This document shows, one piece after another, positions 13,620 through 20,293 of a stretch of DNA of 64,000 bases. Made by a program: the position numbers and the translations under genes. Source of the stretch: a virus; IMG/VR virus record IMGVR_UViG_3300005731_000013, positions 62,001-126,000 of that record; one strand, 5' to 3'. The notes beneath the pieces were generated by a model. That model saw only the letters and a program-made list of their open reading frames with translations, did no database searches and had not been told where the DNA came from. Position 1 is the first letter of the stretch. The number at the start of each line of letters is the position of its first letter.

Positions 13620-14462
13620 TTGGCTGAAAATCCACTTAAACAGTATTCTAAACGTCCAGGGACATTTGTATCATTGCCGTCAGACGGGAAATTTTATACT
13701 GTGCCACCTGAAATGTCAGCTGACGGAGAAATCGAGATCCGCCCAATGACTGCTAGTGATGAAATCAAACTAAAAAATCCTGATGGGCTAATGAATTCTG
13801 AATCATTGTTTCAAGTTATTGAACATATTGCTCCTGGAATCGCAAATGCAAAAGACATTCCTACTCCAGATTTAGATATTATTGTCATAGGGATGCGGTT
13901 AGCAACCTATGGTCAATTTATGGATGTGAATGTCACATGCAAAAATTGTTCTCATACCGAAAACTATCAAATCAATTTGTCAAATGTATTGGCAAGTGCA
14001 GGAAAAATTACTGCGCCTGATAAAGTTAATGTAGGGGGGTTGGTTGTATCGATTCGTCCACATACGACAGAATCAAATACCATGTATTCAAATTATCAAG
14101 TTGAACTATTACGCGCTGCTAGAATGGTTGAAACTAATGTAATGGAAAATAAAGAACCTCTTAATAAACAATTGGCCGAAATTATGGCGAAAGGATCACA
14201 AATTTTATATGAAATTGCAATGAATCATGTCACATCTGTAATGATGCCTGATGGCAATAGTATAACTGATAAATCATTGATTAAAGAATGGTTAGCTGAT
14301 TTAGCTGCGCCTGACTATCAGTTGGTCCGTGACGCAGTTAATGCATTGAGCAAAGAACAGATTGACCGTAATGTGTCATTCCATTGTACTCAATGTGAGA
14401 CTGAAAATAAGGTCGAAGTATCATTTGATCCTGCAAATTTTTTCGGAGCCAGCTCGCTTTAA
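13620..14462 (+). CDS. 26: gp26-like baseplate hub/assembly protein with zinc-ribbon cysteines
   Basis: 280 residues from a TTG at 13620, supported by Shine-Dalgarno AAAGGA seven bases upstream. The N-terminus (PLKQYSKRPGTFVSLPSDGKF, then EIEIRPMTASDEI) resembles the T4 baseplate hub/gp26 family, where T4 gp26 is 208 residues. Two CxxC pairs, TCKNCSH (about residues 107-111) and HCTQCE (about 258-262), could bind zinc. The last codons contain the slippery sequence at 14435-14444, and an overlapping -1 frame continues to 14710. This is the layout of tail-assembly chaperone genes such as lambda G/GT and P2 E/E'. A role in hub or tail assembly is inferred. Confidence 0.65.
   Translation: MAENPLKQYSKRPGTFVSLPSDGKFYTVPPEMSADGEIEIRPMTASDEIKLKNPDGLMNSESLFQVIEHIAPGIANAKDIPTPDLDIIVIGMRLATYGQFMDVNVTCKNCSHTENYQINLSNVLASAGKITAPDKVNVGGLVVSIRPHTTESNTMYSNYQVELLRAARMVETNVMENKEPLNKQLAEIMAKGSQILYEIAMNHVTSVMMPDGNSITDKSLIKEWLADLAAPDYQLVRDAVNALSKEQIDRNVSFHCTQCETENKVEVSFDPANFFGASSL
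14435..14444 (+). other. candidate programmed -1 frameshift site
   Basis: In the frame of the gp26-like gene the codons read GCA AAT TTT TTC GGA. Two overlapping heptamers obey the X XXY YYZ rule: A AAT TTT and T TTT TTC. Slippage by -1 enters the open frame that runs to 14710. Confidence 0.65.
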
Positions 14463-14710
14463 CAACAAGTTATAATGAGGTCCAAGAGCTGGTTCAAAAA
14501 TATGAGACGCAAACAGATTTGTTCATTAAAGATTTAATGCGTATCAGTGTATTAGGACCTGTGCCATACGAAGATGTAGTCAATATGACACCAAAAGAAC
14601 GAAAAATATTATCAGATGTATTACAAGAACGAGCAGATGCACAGAACCCAAACAAAAAGACACAACAGCTAGAACCAGGTGTTGTGTCAGGACCAGTACG
14701 GAATTTATAA
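14441..14710 (+). CDS. -1 frame extension (gp26-like fusion C-terminus) or small overlapping gene
   Basis: This frame reads about 88 codons after the slippery site: YNEVQELVQKYETQTDLFIK, LMRISVLGPVPYEDVVNM, TPKERKILSDVLQERADAQN. It is helical and protein-like. Protein-like sequence begins well before any good start codon. The first plausible starts are TTG at 14519 and ATG at 14537, both inside the helical stretch and with poor Shine-Dalgarno sequences. A -1 frameshift would give a fusion of about 363 residues. In tail chaperones of other phages the extended form binds the tape measure. Independent translation from the TTG or ATG is the alternative. Confidence 0.6.
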   Translation, partial: FRSQLALTTSYNEVQELVQKYETQTDLFIKDLMRISVLGPVPYEDVVNMTPKERKILSDVLQERADAQNPNKKTQQLEPGVVSGPVRNL

Positions 14711-15427
14711 GAAGTTTAATAGATCATTCAGGCAGAACTTCGTCAACCGTATAATATTTTATCTTGTTTACAATGATGCTTCGCATCATTGGCTGATTGA
14801 TAAATCGACTTTCATTCACTTCGTTCATTCAAGTCATTTATCTTCAGCTTTTTTAAAGATATCGAAATATATTTTATTATGATTAATTTTTCGAATATAT
14901 ATGATAATCATATATCATTTTCCAGAACTAATAACCACACTTTGCCTAGATCAGGCAAAGTGTGGTCAAAGATTCAGAGTTATTTTCCGTCACCAACTCA
15001 GCAAGCTGAGCCACTCTGTAATAAAACAACCTTATATAGCCAGGTAAGGGCGGTTGAGCGATACCCTTTTATGTTTAGCTTTATCAACGCGGGAACATAT
15101 AACAATATTACAGCTTTGTTATACTACCTCTAGGATCCTAGCGTGTGAGGAGAGCCTAGTCATTTTTGATTTGTCAAATCAATGCATTTAGACTGCGGCG
15201 CGCCAGATCTGTCAATATAAGAATATCTTATATAAACTCAAGACGGGTCAAACCAGTGTTGCCGCTATAGCAGGGTTCTGTGGAAGGGTTCTGTATTAGC
15301 ATGTGTTAGCTGCTAGGAAATCTTCATATTATACACATAAGACTTAAATGTGTTTGAATATCATAGTTAAACGATAATATTTTACCAGTTTAACAACATT
15401 TGTATTATTAGTCAACAGAAAAATACA
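14711..15427. ncRNA. candidate large structured noncoding RNA (about 0.7 kb)
   Basis: About 717 bases between a plus-strand and a minus-strand gene with no convincing protein. The region is rich in local pairings: AATGATGC/GCATCATT (14772-14790); ATATATGA/TCATATAT (14895-14913); a perfect 13-bp stem with a 7-base loop (14934-14966); nested CAGAGT/ACTCTG around CTCAG/CTGAG (14975-15018); a 12-bp CTAGGATCCTAG palindrome (15130-15141); TTGATTT/AAATCAA (about 15165-15182); TATAAG/CTTATA near 15216-15232; and GTTAAAC/GTTTAAC (15366-15394). GGGTTCTGT occurs twice (15273, 15286). Size and phage setting recall giant ornate RNAs such as GOLLD and ROOL, but I cannot match a consensus. Strand and ends are unknown. 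No tRNA, tmRNA or intron core was seen. Confidence 0.5.
14934..14966. other. perfect 13-bp hairpin in the noncoding region
   Basis: Arms ACCACACTTTGCC and GGCAAAGTGTGGT enclose the loop TAGATCA. It is the most stable-looking stem in the interval. No T tract follows on the plus strand (CAAAGATT) and none is obvious on the minus strand, so it looks like part of an RNA fold rather than a terminator. Confidence 0.7.
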
Positions 15428-15856
15428 TTATTTCTTTGGTATTGTGACATCTTTGACATGATTTCGATGAATCTTACCACCTATAAAACTGTTATGATAA
15501 TCTGAACGCAATAATACATCTCTTATGATTTGCTCACGTAGCTCTATATATGACATTTCGCCTTTGCTGTTACACAAATGTAAAATTTCACGAATATAAT
15601 TATCGCCACCATTTGTTTCAACTAATAATTTTAATTCTTCAGAAGAACCGTAATATGATTTCCAATCGGATTCTTTAATTACGGTTCTTTTGCGTTTTTT
15701 GCCTTTTAACGGAGGAATTTTACGAGTTGACCAAAATAATTTTTTACCGATATATTTCATACCCGTAGTTTTTTCAGTAATCAAATAAACAAAACCAACC
15801 CAATTTGAAAGTTCATCCATAGAAGGCTTAAATTCTTCACCATTGTATATCCACAT
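15428..15856 (-). CDS. GIY-YIG-type nuclease domain protein
   Basis: 142 residues. The segment FVYLITEKTTGMKYIGKK near residues 22-39 is the GIY-YIG core with the first motif reading VYL and the second YIG. It is followed by a basic block (KGKKRKRTVIKESDWKSYYG) and a Glu-containing helix, as in small phage GIY-YIG proteins. A nicking or double-strand endonuclease is expected, either a homing (Seg-like) enzyme or a DNA-processing enzyme conserved in T4-like marine phages. The ATG at 15856 lies exactly five bases after a perfect TATAAATA, so the late mRNA may be leaderless. No Shine-Dalgarno sequence is visible apart from GGTG. Confidence 0.7.
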   Translation of the reverse strand: MWIYNGEEFKPSMDELSNWVGFVYLITEKTTGMKYIGKKLFWSTRKIPPLKGKKRKRTVIKESDWKSYYGSSEELKLLVETNGGDNYIREILHLCNSKGEMSYIELREQIIRDVLLRSDYHNSFIGGKIHRNHVKDVTIPKK

Positions 15857-16152: not shown

Positions 16153-18720
16153 TTATTCAGTATTACTTATTTCAAATGATGTAAACCCATTTTCTTTTAC
16201 AACATTCAAAATTTTATGAATTCTCCCAACAAGTTCTTCTCTGTGTGAAATTAGGAAAATATTCTTATTACGCTCTCGATTCATTTTCTTCAAAACCAAA
16301 AGCGCACTTTCTACACCGTTTTGGTCTAAACCACTATCAATAAGTTCATCAATAGCCATAAAGTCAATAGGCATATTTGTACATTCATGAACATCACGGA
16401 ACGCCCAACTTAGTCCAAGAATGAGTCGATTGCGCTCACCTCTACTTAGATTGTCAAAATCCAAATCACGTCCTAATTCAGTAATTTCTACTGACAGGTC
16501 ACTTTGGAAGATAACCTCATGTGGCAGACCTAATTTAGTTAGATAATAATTCAATCTCAAATTCAAATATTGTAAATTTTGTTCAATAATGCGTTTACGA
16601 ACAAAGCTATCTTTGTTGGTCAACAATTTCAGCAAGAAATCTTGGTGCTCGCGCAAATTGTGCAACTCATTCATTGTTTCCCAGTCAATTTCTTGAATCC
16701 CACTCTGCTCCAAAATTTCAATTTGATCGCAATATGGATCTTCAGCATTCATTGTTGATTCTAATTGGTTTTGTAATGATGTCAATTGACTTTGTTGTTC
16801 ATATGCTTCTTGTGCAGTAGCATATTTTGTGACAGGAATTGAAGGCTGAATTACGATGTTATCTAATTTAGAAGATAATTCAACAGTTGCTTCATTATAT
16901 TGGCTAATCAAATTATCAAAATCAGCAACAGCCGCGGCCTTTGTTTGCATGATTTGTTCATGTTGCTCATCATGAATATCTTGGCCGCAAGCGTAACATG
17001 TATGCTCTTTAGCAGCATTTAGATCATTCAATGCCTTTTCTTTAAGGCGTGATTCTCGTTGAATACTTGCTTCTAACGTAGCAATTTCTTTTTTAATTTC
17101 CGCACTTTCAGCATGTTTACGATTATATTCTTCTAAATCGATATGTTGTTGTAGCTCATGTTCTAAATCAAGTTTTGACAGGAAATCAATTGATTTAGTC
17201 AATAATTCGATTTCTTCGTTATTCTTATTAGCCCATACCCGCTGTCTTCGTTTTAAATCTGAAATGCTTTTTTCAATTTGCTCATTAGCATTTTTGATAC
17301 CATTAATACGAAATTCTTCTTCTTTGATTTTATCTTTTGTGTTTTTCAATAACTCTCGTAACACAACAGCTTTTTCACTTAGCATTGTTATGCCTAGCAA
17401 ATTCTCAATAATTTCCCGTTGATCATTTGCTCGTAATGCAAGAAATGGTTCATTATATGTGTTCAATGCAACCAAATGTTTGAACATTAAATGATTCATG
17501 CCTACTACTTTTTCAATTTCAAGTTGGGTTAATCTTGATTCGCCTTGTCCTTCATCAGTTTCTTCAACATTTACACCATCTACTAAAAATCGCAATACAT
17601 TAGGACTGCGCCCCCGTTCAATTCGATAATGGGTCTGATTTATATCAAATTCAACAGTCACCAACATACCTTTTGAATTTGTCTTGTTGATTAAATTATT
17701 CTTCTTAATATTACTAATAGCATTGCCATATAATGCATAGCTCAATGCATTTACCATAGTGGTGTTATGAGTTACAATAAAATCATCAGTAATATATAGA
17801 TGATCTGGATGATTGATCATGATACACTGTGCTTTATCTTTTCCAATGAATTTGATATCAGTGATTTTCAGACCATTTGTATTATCTGTATTGGTCAATC
17901 TATCCTTCAACGTTGGATCAGTTACAAGTGACTGCAAGTCATTATGTTTTATATATAGGTGATTGACGCCATCAACTTCATCTATATTTACAATCCCACC
18001 AACACTGCGAATCAAAAATTGCAAGTCATGTGCTAATAATTTATCATATGTAGAATAACGAAGAATCTTGCTATCACAAAACCCATTTACATCCATTAAA
18101 CCTTGAATCAATGCTTTCCGTTGTGACAATGATGCAAATTTATAAGGACCAATCAAATTATAGCCGATTGGCGAGGTTCTATAAACTAAATCATTATTTC
18201 CTAATAATACACCAGTTGAATATGGATCTGCAGGCAGGATAACGTGAAAAATATCATCTATTGGGTCCACCAAAGGAATAAACATTTCATTCTTGACATC
18301 AAGATTCATGATTTCAGTTGTAGACAATGTCATATATTCTGTAGGATCATCAAAAGAATTTGACTTAACATTCCATAAATGATCTCCACAAGCATGAGTT
18401 TTTCGTCCATCCTCAAATGTTAATTCATAAATGTCAACCATACCTTGAGGAAAAATACCAATTACAGATGCATTTTTGCCATCCGGAGTAGATACTACAT
18501 CATGAAGTTTGATATCACCCATGGTCGTCCAACCCTTAGGTGTGTGAATCTTGCTATATAGCGGTTGTGCTTTGCCTACACCATTTCTTGACCCATCACC
18601 TCCAAGATCCAGGTTATTACCTAATACAAGTGTCAATCCTGAGTCTTCAAAATTAATTGCTTGGGTGATGTTGCCAACACTCAAAAAGTTTTTAATTGTT
18701 ACATTTTTGATTTTGATCAT
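16153..18720 (-). CDS. 46: gp46 recombination/repair ATPase subunit (Rad50/SbcC-like) interrupted by an intein
   Basis: With gp47 it forms the Mre11-Rad50-type nuclease that resects DNA ends for recombination-dependent replication in T4. The 855-residue precursor has an N-terminal ATPase half (MIKIKNVTIKNFLSVGNI), a Walker A motif split after Lys50 (GSRNGVGK, then TTMVNALS from residue 320), a central coiled coil with a zinc hook CYAC (Cys575, Cys578), an ABC signature LSRGERN (about 758-764), Walker B IDFMAIDE (785-792) and a switch His (LISHREEL). Removing the intein (residues 51-319) leaves 586 residues, close to T4 gp46 (560). The start overlaps the end of the upstream nuclease gene by 29 bases. 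Activity requires splicing, because the P-loop is otherwise broken. Confidence 0.95.
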   Translation of the reverse strand: MIKIKNVTIKNFLSVGNITQAINFEDSGLTLVLGNNLDLGGDGSRNGVGKAQPLYSKIHTPKGWTTMGDIKLHDVVSTPDGKNASVIGIFPQGMVDIYELTFEDGRKTHACGDHLWNVKSNSFDDPTEYMTLSTTEIMNLDVKNEMFIPLVDPIDDIFHVILPADPYSTGVLLGNNDLVYRTSPIGYNLIGPYKFASLSQRKALIQGLMDVNGFCDSKILRYSTYDKLLAHDLQFLIRSVGGIVNIDEVDGVNHLYIKHNDLQSLVTDPTLKDRLTNTDNTNGLKITDIKFIGKDKAQCIMINHPDHLYITDDFIVTHNTTMVNALSYALYGNAISNIKKNNLINKTNSKGMLVTVEFDINQTHYRIERGRSPNVLRFLVDGVNVEETDEGQGESRLTQLEIEKVVGMNHLMFKHLVALNTYNEPFLALRANDQREIIENLLGITMLSEKAVVLRELLKNTKDKIKEEEFRINGIKNANEQIEKSISDLKRRQRVWANKNNEEIELLTKSIDFLSKLDLEHELQQHIDLEEYNRKHAESAEIKKEIATLEASIQRESRLKEKALNDLNAAKEHTCYACGQDIHDEQHEQIMQTKAAAVADFDNLISQYNEATVELSSKLDNIVIQPSIPVTKYATAQEAYEQQSQLTSLQNQLESTMNAEDPYCDQIEILEQSGIQEIDWETMNELHNLREHQDFLLKLLTNKDSFVRKRIIEQNLQYLNLRLNYYLTKLGLPHEVIFQSDLSVEITELGRDLDFDNLSRGERNRLILGLSWAFRDVHECTNMPIDFMAIDELIDSGLDQNGVESALLVLKKMNRERNKNIFLISHREELVGRIHKILNVVKENGFTSFEISNTE
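17764..18570 (-). mobile_element. class 3 (WCT) intein in the gp46 P-loop
   Basis: 269 residues (precursor 51-319). It begins AQPLYSKIHTPKGW, so residue 1 is Ala rather than Cys or Ser, and ends FIVTHN before Thr+1. Block B is CGDHLW (His114, Trp116), block F is AQCIMI (Cys299) and block G has Thr317 before His-Asn. Trp, Cys and Thr in these blocks are the WCT set of class 3 inteins, which start splicing from the block F Cys. A LAGLIDADG-like domain is present, but both catalytic Asp positions read Asn: GVLLGNND (about 170-177) and LIQGLMDVNGF (about 204-214). It is probably splicing-competent but no longer homing-competent. Confidence 0.85.
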
Positions 18721-20293
18721 TAGTCCAGTTCCATTCAGTTTTTCCTGAATCCCATATTCTTAGAATGCCTGCATTGTCCATCATTTCTTTTTCAGTTAAA
18801 ATACAGTTATAATGTTCAGGTAATTTTAGTTTTATTTGTTGTTTTGTGAAATGGCTGCAATGTTTTAATTCACCATTAAATAGATATTGATATGACGGAG
18901 GAAGAGTCTTGCCTTTTGTGAATTTACATTGAGAATACACATCTCCAGTAAACCAATCATTCATTGAAAAGCTTACAACATTGTTAAATTTGAGTTCTTT
19001 TTGCGCATGAGCAAATGTTTTGCTGAATAACCCTGGGTGTGTTTTGTTATCAGTTGCCCAACGTTTGAGTTCAAATCTCCTAGATTGTCTTGACCCTCTT
19101 GTCCAGCCAAATGTCATAACTCCGATTAAATTATTTTGCTTGTCATATGCACCCCAATAACTTGTGCTTATAACAAAGCTTTGTAAATGATATTTATTTA
19201 AAAACTTCCTGGCACTTTTGGCGTCAATTTTAGAAATATAACATTGACGCGCCCCTATACCTTTTTGCTTGATATGCACATGTGTTTTGATTAATTCAAT
19301 AATTTTTTCTTTTTGTGTATGCCAAGTTGATTCAGAAATTTGTAATAACGTTATATTTTGATCTTTACATTTTTGCCATTTGTTATAATGATAATCTTTA
19401 GATTTGAACAAATCACTATGCCAATAATCGCCATTACATTCAATAGCTAAATTATAATCAGGTAAGTAAAAATCTAACTCTTGGGGATGAATAATATTGC
19501 GGTCATTGAACACAATATTAGTCAAATTTAAATTATCCAATACTGCTTTAATTTCTGTTTCAAAATTGCTACAATAAAATTTAAAATCTATGTCGTATTT
19601 TTTAATATGATTATATACAGTATATTGATCAACACCTAGTTTTTTAGCAACATTCAAAACTGAATTATGTTTAAGTAATTCAGTTAATTGTGATTCATCT
19701 AATAGGATTTGTTTTGCGAGGTCAGATATATGTTGCTGACTTGGATGACCATTATATCTTGCATGATTGGATTGTAATGTTTTTTGTTTGATAATATCTG
19801 CTTGGGCAGGATTTAATACACCATATTTTTCTAAAGTTGTTTGCTGTGCTTTATATTTTAAAGAATCTGATTGCATAGCATATTCTACATCATGTCGGTC
19901 CAACATTGTAGATTTGAATTTAGATTTTAACAATTCAGATTGTAATGCATGTTCATGGCCATAACGTTCAGTCATTGTAAATTTGAATTTAGATTTTAAC
20001 AATTCAGATTGTAATGCATGTTTATGACCATAACGTTCAATCATAGTGTTATTTTTTGCAGTTTTAAATGATTCACTATTTGCACGACATTTTGCAGAAC
20101 AAAATGATGCGTAGTTTTTTCTCTGCCATTTTACAATATTATTGCATTCAATACAAGTAGGAATATGTGCGATATCATTTATTAAATGCCAAACAATTTG
20201 ACGAGCATTAGTTGAATTAACAATATTATCATCCAAGGCTGAATAATCAATATCAGATAAATCTGACATTGTTAACCGACTCTTATCCCACAA
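18692..20293 (-). CDS. Homing-endonuclease-like protein 3, between gp47 and gp46
   Basis: 533 residues from a TTG at 20293. An ATG at 20269 (MSDLSDIDYS) is an alternative. No strong Shine-Dalgarno sequence is seen. Same domains as the gene at 1220: ARQIVWHL, Cys-rich motifs (IPTCIECN, FCSAKC), RYGHKHALQSELLKSK-type repeats of which two are nearly identical in tandem (about residues 85-125), a helix-turn-helix (VAKKLGVDQYTVYNHI), a VSR-like nuclease (FETEI, ELDFYLPDYNLAIECNGDYW; about 240-330) and the C-terminal GNAT/Mom-like domain (WGAYDKQNNLIGVMTFGWTR, FELKRW, GLFSKTF, VVSFSMNDWFTGDVY), ending IWDSGKTEWNW. It splits the normally adjacent genes 47 and 46, starting 10 bases after the gp47 stop and overlapping the gp46 start. 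Confidence 0.75.
   Translation of the reverse strand: MWDKSRLTMSDLSDIDYSALDDNIVNSTNARQIVWHLINDIAHIPTCIECNNIVKWQRKNYASFCSAKCRANSESFKTAKNNTMIERYGHKHALQSELLKSKFKFTMTERYGHEHALQSELLKSKFKSTMLDRHDVEYAMQSDSLKYKAQQTTLEKYGVLNPAQADIIKQKTLQSNHARYNGHPSQQHISDLAKQILLDESQLTELLKHNSVLNVAKKLGVDQYTVYNHIKKYDIDFKFYCSNFETEIKAVLDNLNLTNIVFNDRNIIHPQELDFYLPDYNLAIECNGDYWHSDLFKSKDYHYNKWQKCKDQNITLLQISESTWHTQKEKIIELIKTHVHIKQKGIGARQCYISKIDAKSARKFLNKYHLQSFVISTSYWGAYDKQNNLIGVMTFGWTRGSRQSRRFELKRWATDNKTHPGLFSKTFAHAQKELKFNNVVSFSMNDWFTGDVYSQCKFTKGKTLPPSYQYLFNGELKHCSHFTKQQIKLKLPEHYNCILTEKEMMDNAGILRIWDSGKTEWNWTNDQNQKCNN

Follow-up and report, generated by a model that had tools for sequence, protein, structure and literature searches.

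Comparative analysis supports a large structured RNA in a conserved gap of T4-like phages, of which Rfam's Polynucleobacter-1 appears to be a fragment

To our knowledge, large structured RNAs are few in phages, and their functions are not known. Here, we ask what is encoded in a gene-free stretch of a phage genome that an earlier note, made from the letters of the DNA, had singled out as the possible seat of such an RNA. The window, meaning the whole 64,000-nt stretch analysed, covers positions 62,001-126,000 of a 168-kb virus record and is T4-like in gene content (portal gp20, a gp26-like baseplate protein, gp46 and gp47). Within it, a plus-strand gene set (gp26 and a gp51-like ORF, ending at 14710) converges on a minus-strand set ending at 15428 (gp47, an HNH endonuclease, gp46, a small ORF and a SegE-like GIY-YIG gene). 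The stretch between them, 14711-15427, is indeed as unusual as claimed and is the sole large non-coding gap of the window: with a 90-aa cut-off, and with the gp51-like ORF counted in, the gap spans positions 14463-15427 (965 nt), against about 300-350 nt for each of the next three. The absence of a credible protein also holds, since no frame stays open among relatives, the best (14879-15133, plus strand, 84 codons) having in-frame stops or frameshifts in most of them. The supposed richness in G/C proved true of the core alone (14918-15314, 0.416), the region as a whole standing at 0.344 against 0.349 for the window.

Searching with the gp26 protein led to two relatives of the same layout, whose gaps of 605 and 650 nt align over their length; a pattern drawn from the best-conserved stretch, together with a profile search, added the others. 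The resulting set holds ten distinct IMG/VR relatives besides the window, plus one divergent member (L014), and in each the RNA lies in the same convergent gap after gp26 and gp51, wherever the contig reaches that far. The flanking gp26 is just 32-59% identical across this set, while hardly any change is seen in the core motif ACCTTGTATAGCCAGGnAAGGGCGGTTGAGCGATACCCTTTTA (plus strand). Vector contamination (AscI and BglII sites lie near 15198-15211) was ruled out, as this stretch aligns with relatives as GCATGCCAGATC. Queried at the DNA level with the window region and with two relatives, INPHARED gave nothing useful, and one genome-collection match (L080) was discarded as a chance match within apparently coding DNA of a bacterial genome.

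Taken together, these alignments support the view that the region encodes a large, conserved, structured phage RNA (Table 1). The 717-nt region is more structured than its shuffles (z -4.7 on plus, -7.6 on minus), and the hairpins described earlier are real: the perfect stem given as 13 bp in fact has 14 (14934-14947/14953-14966), and the nested stems placed near 14975-15018 include 14997-15002/15005-15010. Comparative folding, which had been suggested as a check, brought out covariation among relatives, with compensatory change in 16 of the 30 predicted pairs of the 5' domain (RNAalifold). In the 180-nt core (A6), 31 named pairs form in 96% of cells, and 10 of them (27 cells) have changed on both sides; this covariation was matched by none of 500 shuffles and by no slid register, and across groups again by none of 500. 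At the heart of the core is a pseudoknot between the loop of the AAGGG/CCCUU hairpin and an upstream GCGUUGA, for which the strand pairs GUUGA/UCAAC, GUUGU/ACAAC, GUUGG/CCAAC, GUCAC/GUGAC and GUCGC/GCGAC are seen. Across groups, its last three positions are filled by UA and CG; by GC, GU, UA and AU; and by AU, UA, CG, GC and UG. An alternative pairing of the pseudoknot loop with a 3'-terminal CGGUUGA (near 14743-14750) was set aside, as covariation (L003, L006, L013) lends it no support.

The RNA is most likely read from the minus strand, from about 15,380 to about 14,720, because its core helices, read in this direction, contain 22 G-U against 3 A-C cells, a proportion that is reversed on plus, in counts not independent of ancestry. 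Over whole regions, the counts for pairs predicted on the two strands (likewise not independent of ancestry) favour minus by 36:18 and 24:11 in two groups, and in both groups the consensus energy is lower on minus. Single-sequence folding of the core has no preference for minus (z -2.9, against -3.4 on plus), and RNAalifold at first gave a good-looking plus-strand fold with 3 and with 11 sequences, a reading that we gave up in view of the G-U test.

Table 1. Positions in the window of the proposed RNA, its elements and its neighbours
Feature	Position	Strand	Basis
gp26-like baseplate hub gene (T4_baseplate), conserved neighbour	13638-14462	+	PF12322, phrog_150
Small gp51-like ORF, ending just short of the RNA region	14519-14710	+	Position alone; no family match
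Probable terminator of the gp26-gp51 operon (GCTGA..TCAGC stem, then TTTTTT)	14792-14854	+	Sequence; alignment (stem and T-run present in relatives too)
Proposed RNA gene, ends approximate	14725-15380	-	nhmmer profile match 14707-15347; alignment of 11 relatives; G-U pattern for strand
Candidate promoter TTGACT-17-TGT TAAACT	15387-15415	-	Above 95% of shuffles; picked up by a promoter scan too; consensus match only
5' domain: small 5' hairpin, long-range GCGGC/GCCGC stem, CUAGG/CCUAG stem	15124-15314	-	RNAalifold; model R3
3' core domain, common to other phage groups	14918-15097	-	Model R1 (195.6 bits); model R2
Pseudoknot 5' strand, RNA GUUGA	15084-15088	-	Covaries with 15053-15057
Core hairpin stem, 5' side, RNA AAGGG	15064-15068	-	Compensatory changes in L003, L012, L013
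Pseudoknot 3' strand, RNA UCAAC, in core hairpin loop	15053-15057	-	Covariation
Core hairpin stem, 3' side, RNA CCCUU	15046-15050	-	Covariation
Small hairpin CUCAGC/GCUGAG	14997-15010	-	Double changes in 4 of 5 scored pairs
14-bp hairpin ACCACACUUUGCCU/AGGCAAAGUGUGGU	14934-14966	-	Hairpin at same place in relatives
SegE-like GIY-YIG gene, directly 5' of the RNA	15428-15856	-	PF19835, phrog_447

Membership in a known family was checked with covariance models. No Rfam family reaches threshold anywhere in the window, and none of GOLLD, ROOL, OLE and HEARO, the families named in the earlier note, matches the region at E up to 10, nor do their models match the relatives; the best Rfam match there, IS128 (24.7 bits against a cut-off of 80), was dismissed as a chance fold on a hairpin. 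On these searches, the third option that the note had offered, a new class, fits best, and its relatives overlap Polynucleobacter-1 (RF01718), an entry listed in 2010 by Weinberg from Burkholderiales and fresh water (PMC2864571). The window RNA gives no match to RF01718 at the gathering threshold (37 bits), nor at E up to 10 on the region; 13 related loci match it with 74-118 bits, on the same minus strand and 5' of a shared core (for example L067 8666-8801 and L045 2687-2823). A covariance model built from window-type cores only (R1) matches the corresponding gap, on minus, in other T4-like IMG/VR phages (L067, L053, L060, L051, L050, L062, L047 and L044, E < 0.003), and further, weaker loci likewise on minus in that gap. 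A model of the 5' domain (R3) finds window-type RNAs, L014 among them, and three copies in the 317-kb contig G011 only, the RF01718 copies not being found. What the tests show the two types to share is the 3' core only, with synteny and strand in agreement. Like the window RNA, Polynucleobacter-1 sits in the corresponding gap, on the same strand, of related phages, where it makes up the 5' portion of an RNA with a 3' core homologous to that of the window, but the window RNA falls outside the RF01718 model, which covers just 141 nt. Because the relatives' RNA with the shared core continues 5' into RF01718, this entry seems to be a fragment, namely the 5' part of a larger phage RNA about 450 nt in length.

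The core consensus seen in the window type, the Polynucleobacter-1 type and G011 consists of GCGUUGN or CCGUUGN, a hairpin (stem-GGUAYCGS-NNNAC-CGCC-stem) with the pseudoknot, and then a long hairpin. A further divergent group with a 398-nt gap matches a second core model, R2 (L017 6129-6288 and L020 6120-6279; E 1e-7 and 2e-6). In the Polynucleobacter-1 group, the RNA is followed on minus by (T/C)ATAAATA, the motif of T4 late promoters (about 8430-8450 in L050, and equivalents), which would drive the next minus-strand gene.

Additional copies occur in giant phages. G011 carries four, far apart, of which the one in L115 has gp46, a nuclease and gp26 as neighbours and the remainder do not; all four come with a sigma70-like promoter in the orientation of the RNA (for example TTGACA-17-TATAAA), which in three of them outscores 95% of shuffles. 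At the corresponding site, cultured jumbo phages (GAP32, CBB, Munch and 121Q types) have a gap of 690-800 nt, whose sequence recurs in 62-68 records, usually at 4-5 places in each. The GAP32 and Munch copies lie downstream of a conserved promoter, TGAAAC..TGTGGTATAAT (TGAAAC/TGGGAC..TGTGRTATAAT), of the same class as the TGAAACG/TATA promoters reported for CBB and GAP32 (PMC5259590). Their pseudoknot takes the forms CCGUUGU/ACAAC, CCGUUGC/GCAAC and CCGUUAC/GUAAC, and the jumbo hairpin loop, GGAAACCGG-ACAAC-CCGCC, is close to the GGUACCGG-ACAAC-CGCC of the other group. R2 was built without jumbo sequences, and its best four matches in jumbo loci all fall on the pseudoknot and on the right strand, but with E of 0.019-0.19 each; R1 has no match in GAP32. 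The jumbo loci have the same element order and the same site as the window RNA, and homology of the RNA in GAP32-, Munch- and 121Q-type phages to the window family is probable from these comparisons. At least one paralogue is, by sequence identity, older than the split between GAP32 and Munch, because their 99k/100k pair of copies is 69% identical, against at most 61% to others. We found no description of the jumbo-phage copies in the freely accessible literature (subscription papers and preprints lay outside its scope). As sequences, they are 450-700-nt structured, promoter-driven stretches not found in Rfam (L084 4942-5745, L087 4942-5727, L088 5029-5711; L117-L126). The neighbourhoods searched in PA5oct, Atu_ph07, Phosso, XacN1 and Vibrio 2.275.O gave no credible R2 match; PA5oct and Sinorhizobium phage Phosso have spaces of 1.0-1.5 kb near gp26 with tiny ORFs at most (L083 5513-7027, L082 6211-7226).

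We propose, as the probable explanation and with moderate confidence, that the minus strand of the window region gives an independently transcribed non-coding RNA that acts in trans as a folded scaffold, like GOLLD and ROOL. An own transcript of about 600 nt would be made during infection and fold into a 5' domain and a pseudoknotted 3' core, and the conserved core would bind a partner, which might be a protein, part of the ribosome or of RNA polymerase, or other copies of the RNA itself. Action in trans is suggested by the copies at other loci with their own promoters. A role as leader of a downstream gene does not fit the window, because the upstream gene varies (SegE or PDDEXK) and no same-strand gene follows. 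More broadly, there may be one ancient superfamily of large trans-acting RNAs, standard at one baseplate/recombination locus in a wide T4-like and jumbo group, with four or five promoter-driven paralogues of separate roles in the giants and with Polynucleobacter-1 as its fragment; this wider proposal is plausible and is offered tentatively.

Among known RNAs, ROOL and GOLLD are comparable: both are large, structured RNAs of phages, about 600-800 nt long, pseudoknotted and without coding potential. They often adjoin tRNA genes, though this is not strictly defining; the window RNA differs in having no Rfam match and a conserved baseplate/recombination neighbourhood instead, and no tRNA was found in the window or near the jumbo-phage copies scanned. 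A narrower form of the scaffold proposal, in which the RNA would assemble with itself alone into an oligomer or cage, draws on the cages formed by ROOL and GOLLD (PMC12286853); the RNA is like these two in its size, its origin from phages, its pseudoknot and the absence of an obvious protein partner. Set against the failure to match the ROOL and GOLLD models and the missing tRNA neighbour, and with oligomerisation not visible in sequence, we consider this form unlikely. Phage ICP1 offers another likeness: its most abundant transcript is a non-coding RNA of ~800 nt (PMC7567579), which is likewise large and comes from a space without ORFs in a big lytic phage, but it adjoins lysis genes, unlike the window RNA.

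The main rival for the window copy is the 3' end of the upstream mRNA, because the RNA lies close to the upstream gene and the candidate promoter is a consensus match. As a cis-acting 3' untranslated element or terminator zone, it would protect minus-strand transcripts, of gp46-segE or of the nuclease, at their 3' ends and separate the convergent operons. Such a role would suit an RNA that begins 20-110 nt past the stop of the upstream gene (and overlaps its last codons in L013), the presence of a plus-strand terminator in the gap and the scarcity of strong promoters in the window-type group. Indeed, promoters are not convincing in most members of the window and Polynucleobacter-1 types, so co-transcription with the upstream gene followed by processing is possible. 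Extra copies at other loci with their own promoters in G011, GAP32 and Munch are hard to reconcile with a 3' element, however, and a pseudoknotted core kept over such distances exceeds the needs of a terminator; we judge this rival improbable, if worth keeping in view. That the RNA works instead from the plus strand, by extending the late gp26-gp51 mRNA at its 3' end, is very improbable: it starts within about 15 nt after gp51 and plus folds well too, but the G-U and A-C counts, the strand of the Rfam relatives, the promoters of the copies and the position of the plus-strand terminator ahead of the core all point the other way. Hardly more probable is an element belonging to the SegE-like homing endonuclease, whether as mobile RNA or as target site. 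The SegE-like gene adjoins the RNA in the window, L003 and the Polynucleobacter-1 group, and an HNH endonuclease and an intein-like insert lie nearby, but other window-type members have a PDDEXK nuclease in its place, so the RNA appears independent of the SegE association; in L010, L013, L015 and L115 the RNA is present without this endonuclease beside it.

This RNA is of interest beyond the window: with its pseudoknotted core and strong covariation, it connects metagenomic DNA with an Rfam family that is seemingly just a fragment. The RNA probably extends to cultured coliphages and their relatives (121Q, GAP32, CBB and Munch), with four or five copies in each, so its expression, deletion and structure could be tested directly in the laboratory.

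Elsewhere in the window, the gp46 ORF (16153-18720) has an apparent intein-like insert within its Walker A region (GVGK/A..VTHN/TTMVNAL), resembling inserts of phage helicase and terminase profiles, and a gene for a 533-aa homing endonuclease-like protein (phrog_3339) lies between gp46 and gp47 at 18692-20293.
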